Shown here: positions 15,552-21,460 of the stretch, piece by piece
Numbering within the stretch: the stretch's first letter is position 1
Layout: every line of letters begins with the position of its first letter
From: Opitutales bacterium
Lineage (GTDB): Bacteria > Verrucomicrobiota > Verrucomicrobiia > Opitutales > Coraliomargaritaceae
Assembly: GCA_018607135.1 (NCBI GenBank)
Contig: JABBCA010000012.1
Location: forward strand, 1-64,000
Length of the DNA stretch: 64,000 bases
Direction: 5' to 3'
The notes under the pieces: model-generated
Databases searched by the model: none
Seen by the model: the letters and a program-made list of their open reading frames with translations, nothing else
Told to the model about the DNA's origin: nothing
Translations under genes and position numbers: made by a program

Positions 15552-16847
15552 GTGCACGACGTAAAAGAAAAACCTAAAATGGTCGAAAAGGCCATGCTTA
15601 TTGGCATTACTCTACCTCAGGGTGAGGAGTCCACTACGCGCAGCCTACTCGATGAGTTGCGCGAACTCGTCACGACTCTAGGGATCGGCATTCAGCACGA
15701 GCGAATCATTAGTATTCGTAAGCCGCAAGCGAAACTCCTCGTCGGCTCAGGTAAAGCCGAGGAGCTCGTTGAAGAAGCCAAAGCACATGGCTGCGATGTG
15801 ATTGTGTTCGACAACGAGCTCACTCCTGCACAGCAGCGCAATTGGGAAAAAGCAGCCGATGACAAGATTCTAGTCATTGATCGCCAAGAAGTAATTCTGG
15901 ATATTTTCGGCACTCGTGCACAAACAAAAGAAGCGGTTCTGCAAGTTGAGCTCGCACGACTCGAATACAATTTACCTCGCCTCAAAAGTGCGTGGACACA
16001 CCTAAGCCGTCAGCGAGGCGGTGGCTCGATGCAGCGTGATGCGGGTGAAACTCAGCTAGAGCTCGACCAACGTATGGTCCGCACACAGATTTCTCGCGTA
16101 AAGCGCGAGTTGGTCAGTGTGATCAAACACCGTGAAGTGCAGCGCAAGAAGCGAATGACGGTGCCTGTGCCGACCTGCGCAATTGTCGGCTACACCAATG
16201 CGGGTAAGTCGTCACTACTCAACAAACTGACTAATTCCGACATTCTTGCTGAGGATAAACTCTTTGCGACGCTCGATCCGACCTCGCGACGCTGCCCGCT
16301 GCCGAGTGGCCAGCCACTAGTTGTTACCGACACGGTAGGCTTCGTTCGCAATCTGCCGCACCGACTTGTCGACGCGTTTAAAGCGACGCTAGAGGAAGCC
16401 ATCGTATCTAATTTTTTAATACATGTGCTCGACGTGAATAGCCCTGAGGTGGAAGCCCATGCAAAAACCACACTCGATGTGCTCAACGATCTAGGCGCTA
16501 AGGACAAAAAGATGATCACTGTCTTCAACAAGATTGACGACATGTGGGACGATAGCGTCATACCTAGCCTCAAGATCACTTATCCCGATGCGCTTTTTAT
16601 TAGCGCACATACGGGCGAGGGCATCCCCGAGCTTCTTCAACAAATCGAAGCCATCATTGAAAGCGATTTTGCTCAATTACGTCTACTCGTTCCTCATGAG
16701 CGCTACGACTTAGTCGCGCGACTGCACCGCGAAGGAGGCGTTCGCAAAGAAGAAGCCAGGGATGACGGCACCTATTTAGTCAGCTCAGTCCCTGAACGCA
16801 TGCTTTCAGCAGTCAAGCCATACATACTGGCGAGCCAAGAAGCTTAG
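15552..16847 (+). CDS. hflX: GTPase HflX
   Basis: A 431-residue translational GTPase that binds the 50S subunit and splits stalled or heat-damaged ribosomes. The HflX-specific N-terminal domain (to about 185) contains the glycine-rich QRGGGSMQRDAGETQLELD stretch. The G domain follows with G1 GYTNAGKSSLLNKLT, G3 DTVGFVRNLPH, and G4 NKIDD, then a short C-terminal domain. The start is probably the GTG at 15552; an ATG at 15579 is the alternative. Its last four bases overlap the end of the convergent gene at 16844, so no terminator separates them. Confidence 0.96.
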   Translation: MHDVKEKPKMVEKAMLIGITLPQGEESTTRSLLDELRELVTTLGIGIQHERIISIRKPQAKLLVGSGKAEELVEEAKAHGCDVIVFDNELTPAQQRNWEKAADDKILVIDRQEVILDIFGTRAQTKEAVLQVELARLEYNLPRLKSAWTHLSRQRGGGSMQRDAGETQLELDQRMVRTQISRVKRELVSVIKHREVQRKKRMTVPVPTCAIVGYTNAGKSSLLNKLTNSDILAEDKLFATLDPTSRRCPLPSGQPLVVTDTVGFVRNLPHRLVDAFKATLEEAIVSNFLIHVLDVNSPEVEAHAKTTLDVLNDLGAKDKKMITVFNKIDDMWDDSVIPSLKITYPDALFISAHTGEGIPELLQQIEAIIESDFAQLRLLVPHERYDLVARLHREGGVRKEEARDDGTYLVSSVPERMLSAVKPYILASQEA

Positions 16848-17890
16848 TTTGACTGTGGCTTAGAATCGCGAATCATTTCGCGTAAATCATCGATACTTTC
16901 ACTGTCGTCGGGAAGAGTGATTTTCTCAATTTCTTGATTCAAGTCTGACTCGCCAGCAAGTGAAGGTAAGAGACATGCCATGGAGAGATGTAACAACCAG
17001 TGTAGCACACCTTCTGTCTGCGGATCATTCAGAAACATTAATTCACGTGCCTTGTAAGCTGAATCATGTAAACGGATTGGCAAGCGCGGTTGCCGCTGTG
17101 AAAAATAGTGCAGGCAGTCAAAGATCTCAGGCAATAACTTCTTACCAACCACATGGGGCAACTCCAATGCCTTCCCCATCAATCGACTCCGTTTACGGCG
17201 ACGTTCATGATACTCATAAACCATTTGCAGCTCATGACGACTTAAGCGATTCAAGCAAAAGGCAAGTGCTTCGGGCAAATGAAAGCCACGATGCCCCTTA
17301 CGATAGGGAAAATACTTTGAGAGCCCTTTCTCGTCACCATGAGCAAAAACGTTCTGCAGGTTTTTATAGGAACCGCCGATCCAAGCCTTGTCCGCAAGCT
17401 TATCTAAAAACTCCATCAAATCGACGAAGGTAATAATCTCTTCAGCCTGACACAATTCGTGTAAGTCAGCCCCGAGGTTCGCCAAGCGCACAGGATAATC
17501 TTGGTAGATACCATATTCCTCCACGAAGCGCATTCGCTGGGCGTTAGCCTGCGTATCGATCTCTTCAAAAGACCCTAAGTCATCACATTCTGCTTCGAAC
17601 AGGAATGTAGTTTCACAGATCTCAATGAGATGCTCTGCCGTCTTCAGATCCAAATGCTCAACTTCCAACAATTCTTCAAAAGTCAGATAAATATAACGAG
17701 CGACCGTATCTCCCTTCACCTTACCACCAGGACGCGACCAAGCACGCACGCCAGTATTCTTGGCAAGGCCCGCAAGTGTCAAATCCTCGAAGGGAGATCC
17801 TTGTGCGCGAAACGCAACCTTGTCCCAACGCGCGGAAAGCGCGTCTCTCTTCTCAAGATCGTCACAAGGTGCTGAGTTACTTTCGCTCAT
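16844..17890 (-). CDS. Unknown conserved-looking protein, last gene of ParA/pseudokinase cluster
   Basis: A 348-residue, charged, mostly helical protein without signal peptide or membrane helix. I do not recognise a family. Features seen: an acidic N-terminus, a central basic patch (YHERRRKRSRLMGKALE near residue 230), and an acidic C-terminus. The first 90 residues mention helix-turn-helix-like spacing (LTLAGLAKNTGVRAW) but no convincing DNA-binding motif. It begins 30 bases after the ParA gene and is the fifth gene of a one-strand cluster, so it probably works with ParA, the degenerate kinase and the membrane protein. Confidence 0.78.
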   Translation of the reverse strand: MSESNSAPCDDLEKRDALSARWDKVAFRAQGSPFEDLTLAGLAKNTGVRAWSRPGGKVKGDTVARYIYLTFEELLEVEHLDLKTAEHLIEICETTFLFEAECDDLGSFEEIDTQANAQRMRFVEEYGIYQDYPVRLANLGADLHELCQAEEIITFVDLMEFLDKLADKAWIGGSYKNLQNVFAHGDEKGLSKYFPYRKGHRGFHLPEALAFCLNRLSRHELQMVYEYHERRRKRSRLMGKALELPHVVGKKLLPEIFDCLHYFSQRQPRLPIRLHDSAYKARELMFLNDPQTEGVLHWLLHLSMACLLPSLAGESDLNQEIEKITLPDDSESIDDLREMIRDSKPQSN

Positions 17891-17920: not shown

Positions 17921-18841
17921 CTAAGAGGCACTGGCCATATCCGAAGATGGAGCCGATGCATTGACGTTGTGCGCAAGGATTTCTTCAGCCAAATCATCAT
18001 AGTCTTGGCCCACGCCGTCAACCACATCACGACTCTCAACCAAGCAAACTGGCAAACCCAGTGTCACTGCTCGACGAACGATCGTCGCATCACGCACGCA
18101 AGCGTTGTAGATCTTTGCCTCATTCGAAACCAGTCGCTGCTTCTTGAATTGATTCAAGCGCAGTTGCATACGCATTTTAGGGACGCCGATATCAACATTT
18201 GCTTTAATTGAATTAAAGATCACTCCAGAGACGCGAGCGAAGTTACCCATTTCCTGGGTGCGGAAACCTGCAGAACGGCGATAAAAGAGTAAGAGTTTCT
18301 CGATCATCAAGGTAAAGCCAATCAGTGATAGTGCATCTGGATTGGATGGAACATAAAGTTCGTCCGCACTAAAAATACCACACTGTGATGCGTTCAAGAC
18401 ATTCGGAGGGCAATCGTAGAGGATAAAATCGTAGTCTTTCTCAACTTCACGAATTTGCTCATTGAAGATCAAATAGTGAGGATTCTGAGGGTTGATCTTA
18501 TACTCATTCTCAATATCGATCAGATTGAATGTCGTAGGGAGCAGATCCAATCCTGGCAATTGAACGTTGCCTTGGTTATCTCGGACGACGTCTTTGACAA
18601 TGATGTCTTTAATACGGTCCTCACCTGGATCAAAGATCGAGTAACTCGAACCGCGTTTCTCCATATTGATACGGTTCCAACGCTCGATACGTAGTAGCCA
18701 GATGCTGGAGTTCGACTGTGTGTCCAAATCACAAAGAAGCACACGTTTGCCCTTCTTTGCGAGACATGCAGCAATGTTTACAATGAGTGATGTCTTACCG
18801 ACTCCACCTTTATAATTAATGAAAGCTAACTTTCGTGCCAT
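17921..18841 (-). CDS. ParA-family ATPase (orphan, no ParB)
   Basis: About 306 residues of the ParA/MinD P-loop ATPase superfamily, which position DNA or protein complexes by dynamic binding to nucleoid or membrane. Seen: deviant Walker A KGGVGKTSL at the N-terminus (residues 9-17), LCDLDTQSNSS (Walker A'), and DFILYDCPPNVLNASQCG (Walker B region). There is no N-terminal HTH and no C-terminal amphipathic MinD helix. No parB or parS lies nearby, so chromosome segregation is unlikely; positioning of a protein complex encoded by the cluster is more plausible. The frame is open to 18895, but the ATG at 18841 (MARKLAFIN) fits the family. Confidence 0.92.
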   Translation of the reverse strand: MARKLAFINYKGGVGKTSLIVNIAACLAKKGKRVLLCDLDTQSNSSIWLLRIERWNRINMEKRGSSYSIFDPGEDRIKDIIVKDVVRDNQGNVQLPGLDLLPTTFNLIDIENEYKINPQNPHYLIFNEQIREVEKDYDFILYDCPPNVLNASQCGIFSADELYVPSNPDALSLIGFTLMIEKLLLFYRRSAGFRTQEMGNFARVSGVIFNSIKANVDIGVPKMRMQLRLNQFKKQRLVSNEAKIYNACVRDATIVRRAVTLGLPVCLVESRDVVDGVGQDYDDLAEEILAHNVNASAPSSDMASAS

Positions 18842-18898: not shown

Positions 18899-19627
18899 CT
18901 AGAACTTGTTTTCAAAATCGTCGATTGTAGGTAGATCCTCAGAGAATCCGACGGAGAAATCACCGAACTCATCGACACCATCATGCGTGCCAGTTTTGCC
19001 GCTAGGTGCTTGTTGGTTCTCCAAAATCTTTTCCGAGACTGCCTTATCAATGTAGAGTTCAGCCCAATAACCATTTTCAACCTCATAATCGTCTGGAACG
19101 TATCCATACTTGTCCAAGATTTCGAGAATCAAGGATGAATCTGGAGTCGCACTAAAGCCTGAGAGCATACCGCGATCTTCATGAGCAGTAAGCACCTCGT
19201 CGACAATGAACGGAGGCACGATTCCATCATATGAAGGATGGATTGCGTGCTGCTTTGACCACCGTTGCCAACGTTCGCGATCGACCGAGCGCTCCGTCTT
19301 GGAGAGTGCTTCGAAGTAATAAACTTTACGGCGGCTAAGACGACGAACCAATGCACATGCTTTAATGTCACCATGTTCGATCTCGAGCCAATCCCCGCGA
19401 CGTGGTTCTGTAATAGGATCACGTGTTTGTGAAATATCTTCTGGGGCTTCCAGGAAGTCTTTACCTCCAGCGAAACAGTATTTCACGTCGGTTTCACCAT
19501 GACGCAGGATATCAATCTTGCCTTTTTTAATCAGTTCTTCTTGAAATTTTTCCGCGTCTTCGCGAGACGACGCCCACATAAATTGAGTGACCGAAGTTGT
19601 TACTTTGAATTTTCGTTGAATAGACAT
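18899..19627 (-). CDS. Unknown protein of ParA/pseudokinase cluster
   Basis: A 242-residue soluble protein with no family I recognise. The first 120 residues look alpha/beta with a basic patch (VRRLSRRKVYYFEALSK), and the C-terminus is acidic (DDFENKF). No signal peptide or membrane helix. It lies between the kinase-like gene (45 bases upstream) and parA (57 bases downstream), so it is probably part of the same machine, perhaps as adaptor between ParA and its cargo; this is a guess from position. Confidence 0.78.
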   Translation of the reverse strand: MSIQRKFKVTTSVTQFMWASSREDAEKFQEELIKKGKIDILRHGETDVKYCFAGGKDFLEAPEDISQTRDPITEPRRGDWLEIEHGDIKACALVRRLSRRKVYYFEALSKTERSVDRERWQRWSKQHAIHPSYDGIVPPFIVDEVLTAHEDRGMLSGFSATPDSSLILEILDKYGYVPDDYEVENGYWAELYIDKAVSEKILENQQAPSGKTGTHDGVDEFGDFSVGFSEDLPTIDDFENKF

Positions 19628-19672: not shown

Positions 19673-20620
19673 TTAACTCGCAGCTTTTTCTTCGTCTGCA
19701 CTCGACTCTTCACCTGAACTATCCAGTCCGGGTATTTCTTGCAACATTTCAGCTGCAGATTGAAAACGATTCTCTGGGTTGTAAGCCAGAGCCTTAGCCA
19801 TCCATGCATTCCAACGAGGATTGATGCCATTTACTGCATTCGTCGGTTGGTCTAAGGAAAGACAATGGCGACCGGTTAACATGCGATAGCTAATCAAGCC
19901 CACTGAATACAAATTACTCACTGCATCTGGCTCGTTACCGGCACGCTGCTCTGGACTGTAAAACTCGAAGGCTGCCAACAAGGCAGGTAGTGCACGGCTG
20001 AATCCAGGCAAGGGATCAAATGGAGTGGGCTCAAAACGTGCATCTTTTCTCAACAGATGGAAATCATCCCATGCATGACCAATCAACTCTGTGACACCAA
20101 GCTCAGCAAGTTTCACACCTTCGTCGGCTATCATTACATTTGCGGGCTTTAAATCCGCATGAATGACACCTTGCGCATGCGCGTGGTCGAGACCGAGCAA
20201 CAAGTAGTAGAGATAATAGCAGATCTCTTCTTCACTCATGGGTCCTTTGTTGTTACGCATCAAATCTTCTAATGTGCGGATGCGCTTCTTCTCAGAAGTC
20301 ATCTCACCATCAATGAGCTCCATACGTAACCAATAAAACATATCTTCTTCTCCTAAGTCATCGACCCGAAGGATATGTGGATGCTCCAACTTTGTTTGTA
20401 TGCGGGCAGCACGTTTGAAGGCTTCCGAAGCTTCGTTTCCTGAAAAGCCTTTAGGTATGACTTTAACGGCGAATTCTTTGCCTAATATATCGTGCTGAGC
20501 TATATAGACCTCACCGATAGCGCCTTTTCCGACAAAACTCACGATGTGCAAGTTGCCAAGCGTCATACCTGGCTGCAGCGAGCTGAGTTCGTCTGTAAAT
20601 CCCATTCCAGAAATATCCAT
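19673..20620 (-). CDS. Ser/Thr protein kinase-like protein, probable pseudokinase
   Basis: A 315-residue Hanks-type kinase domain without a membrane segment. The glycine loop (VGKGAIGEVY, 30-39), the ATP-anchoring lysine (AVK, K53), the catalytic-loop aspartate (IHADLKPANV, D156, N161) and SPEQ (222-225) are present. However, the helix-C glutamate is Ala71 (FKRAAR instead of FxREA), HRD is HAD, DFG is ELG (173-175), and the SDxYSxG aspartate is Asn (SNLYSVG, 235-241). These changes hit Mg and structural positions, so it may be a pseudokinase or a weak, atypical kinase. The C-terminus is a short acidic tail. It follows the membrane-protein gene by 42 bases. Confidence 0.88.
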   Translation of the reverse strand: MDISGMGFTDELSSLQPGMTLGNLHIVSFVGKGAIGEVYIAQHDILGKEFAVKVIPKGFSGNEASEAFKRAARIQTKLEHPHILRVDDLGEEDMFYWLRMELIDGEMTSEKKRIRTLEDLMRNNKGPMSEEEICYYLYYLLLGLDHAHAQGVIHADLKPANVMIADEGVKLAELGVTELIGHAWDDFHLLRKDARFEPTPFDPLPGFSRALPALLAAFEFYSPEQRAGNEPDAVSNLYSVGLISYRMLTGRHCLSLDQPTNAVNGINPRWNAWMAKALAYNPENRFQSAAEMLQEIPGLDSSGEESSADEEKAAS

Positions 20621-20662: not shown

Positions 20663-21460
20663 TTAAAAACGTTTTTTAGGCTTTGAAGGTGCCTTGATCT
20701 GGCTGGGTGCATTCGGTGCAGAGGAGGATTTGCCAGAATTTGGTTTTTTAGGAGGTGCTATACGAGTGGGAAGCTTCGGCTTACGCACATTTGGTGGGGG
20801 GGGCGTTGCCGCAGCCTTCTGCTCCACTGGTTTCGTTGGCTTCGGTGTAGTCACCACTTCAATATCAGACTCACTATTGAGAAATTCAATAATTGGGTCA
20901 GGCTGTGCGGCTGTCGTCGCTGCGACTGGAGCTGGGTTCGAATCAGTCTTAGCGGTAGCTTTAGATTTGGTAGCGGATTTAGACTTCACCGCTGGCGCCG
21001 CGCCTTTGGATTTATTCATAAATACAAATACCGCGGCTCCGACCACGCAGAAAACCAGTATGATCCCTATGATGATACCCATGCCTGAACCACTTTCAGG
21101 AGCAGGTTTGACTGATTCCGCAGCCACTACCTCTGTAGCTTGGCTTGCAACCTCTGTAGGTTGGCTTACATCCACTGCCGGCTCAAGCGGCTCAAATACT
21201 GCAACATCTTCCTTGGCCTTATCATAGATTACTGGCTTGAGCAGTGAACTCTTGTCGGCAGTCCCAGTCTCTTTATTAGCCTTTACTTCTGATAATAAAC
21301 TCTTACGCTCACCTACATTAATTTTTGATTGAAGCAGATTAACTGGTTCTTTCGACTGGCTAGATTCAGAATTAATCGGAGTTAACAACGAGCTTTTCTT
21401 CACTGGCTCAGACTTCGAAACTGGGGCGATCGGAGTTAAAAGTGTAGCTTTTTCAGACAT
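20663..21460 (-). CDS. Single-helix membrane protein with repeated SLLxPI/V motif
   Basis: A 265-residue protein, first gene of the five-gene cluster. Residues 1-80 carry four copies of a short linear motif: ATLLTPI (5-11), SSLLTPI (23-29), KSLLSEV (53-59) and SSLLKPV (71-77), with a weaker NLLQSKI near 41-47. A negatively charged linker with SQPTEVASQATEVV follows, then one membrane helix (about 127-149, GIIIGIILVFCVVGAAVFVF), and a Lys/Ala/Pro-rich tail that ends in PPKKPN and KPKKRF. The positive charge after the helix favours the tail on the cytoplasmic side, but the topology is uncertain. The motifs could be docking or phosphorylation sites for the adjacent kinase-like protein; not demonstrated. 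Confidence 0.8.
   Translation of the reverse strand: MSEKATLLTPIAPVSKSEPVKKSSLLTPINSESSQSKEPVNLLQSKINVGERKSLLSEVKANKETGTADKSSLLKPVIYDKAKEDVAVFEPLEPAVDVSQPTEVASQATEVVAAESVKPAPESGSGMGIIIGIILVFCVVGAAVFVFMNKSKGAAPAVKSKSATKSKATAKTDSNPAPVAATTAAQPDPIIEFLNSESDIEVVTTPKPTKPVEQKAAATPPPPNVRKPKLPTRIAPPKKPNSGKSSSAPNAPSQIKAPSKPKKRF

Follow-up and report, generated by a model that had tools for sequence, protein, structure and literature searches.

We describe a pseudokinase of the Hanks type that has lost the same catalytic residues throughout a family of Opitutales, is held under purifying selection, occupies a fixed place in a five-gene operon with a ParA-type ATPase, and decays together with neighboring genes in some relatives. 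We propose, as a reading whose chances we consider evenly poised, that this conserved protein has given up ordinary protein phosphorylation and serves as an adaptor or scaffold subunit of the ParA-type ATPase system. Experimental knowledge of bacterial Ser/Thr pseudokinases is scant (PMC12599244); among ParA-type ATPases, too, many are orphans whose partner or cargo is not known (PMC10241942). Bacterial pseudokinases and orphan ParA-type systems are each known, and their combination is absent from the open-licence literature searched, where we found no paper joining a pseudokinase with a ParA-like ATPase. Here the two meet in a single conserved operon, whose natural variants (without the pseudokinase, with the pseudokinase lost, or with a differently broken one) allow the role of a dead kinase in a cell-organization system to be tested.

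Encoded on the minus strand at 19673..20620 of the window (the whole stretch of 64,000 nucleotides that was analyzed), with the ATG at 20620, the pseudokinase is a single-domain protein of 315 aa for which Pfam returned kinase-type models only. The Pkinase profile matched across both the N and C lobes (E=2.8e-29; 102.8 bits, cut-off 31.7), placing the protein in the kinase superfamily, and the best solved homologues were StkP/PknB (PDB 9ruk and 1mru; E about 1e-27 to 1e-24). The glycine loop (GKGAIGEV), N161 and the SPEQ motif are intact, and the beta3 (VAVK) lysine is present as K53 (20462..20464, minus strand; FAVK here). On the same strand, the helix-C Glu is replaced by A71 (20408..20410, within FKRAARIQ), the DFG Asp by E173 (20102..20104, ELG at 173-175) and the SDxYSxG Asp by N236 (19913..19915, in SNLYSVG), while the catalytic Asp persists as D156 (20153..20155) within a HAD motif at 154-156 in which the HRD Arg is replaced. 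The initial annotation had called A71, HAD, ELG and N236 as departures from the canonical kinase, with K53 and D156 retained, and each of these calls was correct on reading the minus-strand ORF. The AlphaFold2 model of the protein was poor (pLDDT 53, pTM 0.51), and for that reason we drew no claims from it on the structure of the pocket or of a docking face.

Orthologues were sought in 57 related genomes and found, at 62-83% identity, within one family only; with two further genomes added, the family set comprises 11 sequences, that of the window included. Orthologue identity is 61-83%, and a scan of the named genomes places the hosts in the Opitutales (Verrucomicrobiota), as Coraliomargarita and 'Puniceicoccaceae' MAGs. 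Ala for the helix-C Glu, Glu for the DFG Asp and Asn for the SD Asp occur in all 11 sequences, as do K53, the glycine loop, N161 and hence an acidic residue at the DFG position. The HRD Asp is kept in the window and eight others and is Asn (HAN) in L033 and L034. The order also contains canonical cousins (L010, L011 and L013), which keep the Lys, Glu, HRD and DFG; L010 is a long multi-domain kinase, 37% identical to the pseudokinase. Given that positions 71, 173 and 236 do not vary among the 11 sequences while these same-order cousins stay canonical, the substitutions are not the product of chance. Between L033 and L034, the pair that has lost the catalytic Asp, dN/dS of the pseudokinase was 0.031 versus 0.030 for the adjacent ParA gene, a value that rests on this one close pair, several more distant pairs being undefined owing to synonymous saturation; since it equals that of the neighboring ParA, loss of the catalytic Asp has not visibly relaxed selection. 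A bacterial pseudokinase is defined by loss of the beta3 Lys, the HRD Asp and/or the DFG Asp (PMC12599244), and loss of the DFG Asp is a conserved trait of every family sequence. The earlier designation as a pseudokinase is therefore borne out by the absence of the DFG Asp, helix-C Glu and SD Asp from all 11, and homologues with a canonical DFG and helix-C Glu, which had been put forward as the sign of a degraded allele, were not found among the family orthologues. Family-wide conservation and low dN/dS largely rule out a degraded allele, and the 315-aa protein is very probably something other than an ordinary protein kinase.

Conservation within the pseudokinase is unevenly distributed. Among ten aligned sequences 130 of 315 positions are invariant, and in these closely related sequences, with regions chosen after alignment so that the P values are descriptive, invariant sites are enriched in the remodelled activation segment (residues 179-216, LIGHAWDDFHLLR...EPTPFDPLPGFSRALPALLA; 19973..20086, minus strand; 25/38, hypergeometric P = 0.001) and in the glycine-loop/beta3 region (residues 24-60; 25/37, P=0.0006), with no enrichment in the catalytic loop/DFG stretch (residues 151-178; 9/28, P=0.89). 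Such a pattern suits a working active site less well than it does a putative binding surface combined with a pocket roof that has been kept.

The pseudokinase gene is the second of five on one strand, separated by gaps of tens of bases, in the order membrane protein, pseudokinase, 242-aa protein, ParA and 348-aa protein, and the same order recurs in the pseudokinase-bearing family members with long enough contigs. The 'cluster' to which the initial annotation had assigned the kinase is thus real and is a ParA-type ATPase operon. The ParA/MinD-type ATPase gene (17921..18841, minus strand; likely ATG at 18841, ORF open to 18895) carries the deviant Walker A motif KGGVGKT, found in 9/9 sequences, and matched the AAA_31 profile (2.4e-35) and Soj structures (E=7.6e-14), which assigns it to the ParA/MinD ATPases; a separate Soj-like ParA on another contig of the genome is distinct from it. 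Directly 3' of ParA, wherever both are recognized together, is the gene for the 348-aa protein (16844..17890, minus strand), with which an HflX-like GTPase gene (15552-16847, plus strand) is convergent, their ends overlapping by four bases at 16844-16847. The 242-aa protein (18899..19627, minus strand) is predicted to contain a small beta barrel at about residues 78-130, the only region in which its predicted structure is confident (pLDDT about 90), and the structural matches were weak and Tudor/KOW/SH3-like, none significant. Neither the 242-aa nor the 348-aa protein matched a family in Pfam, PADLOC, NCBIfam or PHROGs, and no ParB model was found among the operon neighbors tested. A defense system was set aside: the PADLOC hits of the kinase (PD-T4-6 and mad6) seem to reflect no more than similarity among kinases in general, and no convincing defense family is seen among the other genes of the cluster.

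The membrane protein gene (20663..21460, minus strand) encodes in most orthologues seven hydrophobic/TM segments, a linker that varies and a C-terminal tail, KAPxKPKKRF, that is near-invariant. This basic tail is the most conserved part of the protein, is retained in the window (...NAPSQIKAPSKPKKRF), and its positive charge after a hydrophobic segment suggests a cytoplasmic location. The gene is degenerating in several relatives: the window copy (20663-21460) has one TM segment and lacks the other six of the seven, the gene is frameshifted in the L031 assembly (L031:7300-8444), and remnants are present in L082 and L083.

Searching with a profile of the 242-aa protein brought up the cluster in f20 and f22, two more families of the order, and in one genome of a third (G520) the 242-aa gene alone was recognized. 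In f20 the 242-aa gene is divergent from a run of ParA, 348-aa gene and a coiled coil of about 200 aa, with no kinase alongside, whereas f22 (L065) has the full order of membrane protein, kinase, 242, ParA and 348. The L065 kinase is 25% identical to the pseudokinase and broken at other positions, with His at the beta3 Lys, HGS for HRD (Ser at the catalytic Asp) and His for the Asn, the DFG-position motif being DAG and the SD motif kept; a tree test of the f22 kinase and the family as one clade did not reject it (p-AU 0.37), on a very long f22 branch. Two genomes, G027 and G030, have lost the pseudokinase; ParA and the 242-aa gene are intact there, but the genes for the 348-aa and membrane proteins are missing or survive as remnants. 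By this co-loss the pseudokinase seems tied above all to the products of the latter two genes. Relatives also carry a second ParA - 348-like locus without a kinase or 242-aa gene (L121:6443-8791, L125:6525-9065, L124:5629-7517 and L123:6055-7795), followed in two genomes by a coiled-coil gene, and in G000 (L120:6991-7956) and G010 (L122:7410-8363) the 348-like gene alone was recognized. Because ParA modules without the pseudokinase exist, in f20 and at this second paralogous locus, the pseudokinase seems to have joined a ParA/348 core that is older, with addition, rather than loss, as the presumed direction. A homologue of the f20 coiled coil is encoded elsewhere in most cluster-bearing genomes, and in some cluster-less ones, and is a candidate ParA partner because its f20 counterpart sits in a ParA operon. 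This conserved protein (L116:3965-4573; L115:6958-7554) has a Pro-rich basic N-terminus, PPPPxxPKRRLSLK, and its gene lies near a protease-like gene.

Comparison with known systems places the pseudokinase apart from each of them. It resembles the PknB/StkP-type Ser/Thr kinases (PF00069) in its both-lobe match, glycine loop, beta3 Lys and SPEQ motif, but lacks their DFG Asp, helix-C Glu, HRD Arg and SD Asp, and has neither PASTA domains nor a TM segment in its chain. Seven bacterial pseudokinase families have been reviewed (ActPs1-3, GLW, CP1, DYD and DLHK), which share with this one fixed losses in catalytic motifs and are in some cases membrane-linked (PMC12599244). Those families are reported mainly from actinobacteria, proteobacteria, cyanobacteria and firmicutes, whereas this one is from Opitutales; the beta3 Lys is lost or changed in ActPs1-3, GLW, DYD and DLHK, while K53 is invariant here; and CP1 has a physically linked COG3899 ATPase domain that is absent from the 315-aa protein (PMC12599244), which as a single-domain protein has none of the fused domains named for CP1 and DLHK. 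By the features that could be compared, namely the beta3 Lys and the COG3899 domain, the pseudokinase appears to fit none of the seven. EssB/YukC of type VII secretion is similar in that a kinase fold is used structurally, without catalysis, in a conserved membrane-tied gene cluster, but no type VII genes were seen around the pseudokinase in the window. The kinase domain of EssB is fused to a membrane segment. Like McdA/McdB and related ParA/MinD systems (PMC10241942), the operon combines a ParA-type ATPase with neighboring partners that have candidate basic disordered ends; unlike them, it has no recognized McdB, ParB or MinE and includes a pseudokinase and a multi-TM protein, and among the neighbors tested none matched the adjacent ParB required in ParABS partition.

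ParA-type ATPases are coupled to cargo via partner proteins with basic disordered ends, and EssB/YukC and MviN are bacterial precedents for pseudokinases as non-catalytic scaffolds (PMC10241942; PMC12599244). We propose that ParA and the 348-aa and 242-aa proteins, possibly with the unlinked coiled coil and its basic N-terminus, would assemble on the nucleoid into a module of positioning or partition-like type, which the pseudokinase would link to the membrane protein and its KPKKRF tail, using the remodelled activation segment and the retained nucleotide-pocket roof as a putative docking face. Two candidates for the partner ends that couple cargo would be the KPKKRF tail and the basic stretch at the N-terminus of the coiled coil, and a nucleotide bound without catalysis may serve as a switch or do no more than stabilize the fold. 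ParA-type ATPases also have roles other than positioning. The same gene order in f22 despite different catalytic losses favors an adaptor; against it, in G027 and G030 the pseudokinase is missing although ParA and the 242-aa protein are retained, so it is dispensable to whatever that pair does. A strict membrane-link role is weakened, because the genus of the window has a shortened or frameshifted membrane gene next to an intact pseudokinase. In its fullest form the proposal is that Opitutales possess a novel type of ParA system, in which a dedicated pseudokinase adaptor, possibly nucleotide-switched, would join a seven-TM protein to a ParA machine bound to the nucleoid and would be the first pseudokinase to serve as a subunit of such a positioning system; this form is tentative and in our estimate unlikely to hold in every part.

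The conserved glycine loop and Lys bear on two further explanations. If ATP bound without productive Mg coordination switched the ParA module between states, the protein would be a nucleotide-binding sensor, which the initial annotation had named beside a scaffold, and the invariance of the glycine loop, K53, N161 and an acidic DFG-position residue across the family, the enrichment of invariant sites at residues 24-60 (P=0.0006) and the modelling of other bacterial pseudokinase families with bound ATP despite their lost residues (PMC12599244) are all consistent with this; in the syntenic f22 relative, however, the Lys is replaced by His and the catalytic Asp by Ser, so binding would not be general, and we regard a sensor as rather doubtful. 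The invariant glycine loop and Lys could also accompany residual or altered catalysis, whether by a weak kinase that uses Glu173 for the metal or by transfer of AMP or another group as in SelO/SidJ. Precedents for altered catalysis exist among pseudokinases (PMC12599244), and besides the Lys and glycine loop the Asn is retained, as is the Asp in most orthologues. An active enzyme is nonetheless improbable, since D156 is Asn in two orthologues under equal purifying selection, the HRD Arg and SD Asp are lost as well, and invariant positions show no enrichment at residues 151-178 near the active site.

Far less credible still is that the gene is a decaying copy of a once-active kinase with no present function. 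The pseudokinase is absent from several genomes and is gone or decayed with two neighbors in G027 and G030, as decay would have it, but identical substitutions are fixed in 11 species at 61-83% identity, the frames are open, dN/dS is about 0.03 in the computable pair, and the place in the operon is conserved.

Two other kinase-like genes were noticed. Another pseudokinase present throughout the family, within a protein of roughly 1010 aa, lies at G000:C53:61090-61893 (L099), and its motifs, taken from the homologues of L099 (L017, L018, L019, L022 and L024) and not from L099 itself, show the beta3 Lys as Cys (Gly in L024), the catalytic-loop Asn as Leu and DFG as GLG, with HRD kept. In L014, its f20 relative, the corresponding motifs read Phe, HLN and ELG; a K53-E173 salt bridge compensating for the lost helix-C Glu had been considered for the 315-aa protein and was set aside, as L014 has ELG without the Lys and ELG alone is thus no evidence of such a bridge. 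Elsewhere, G000:C40 (L098:517-2975) encodes a divergent kinase-like protein (HVIGDFNPNN...LIDSDSF) adjoining an apparent PP2C-type phosphatase gene.
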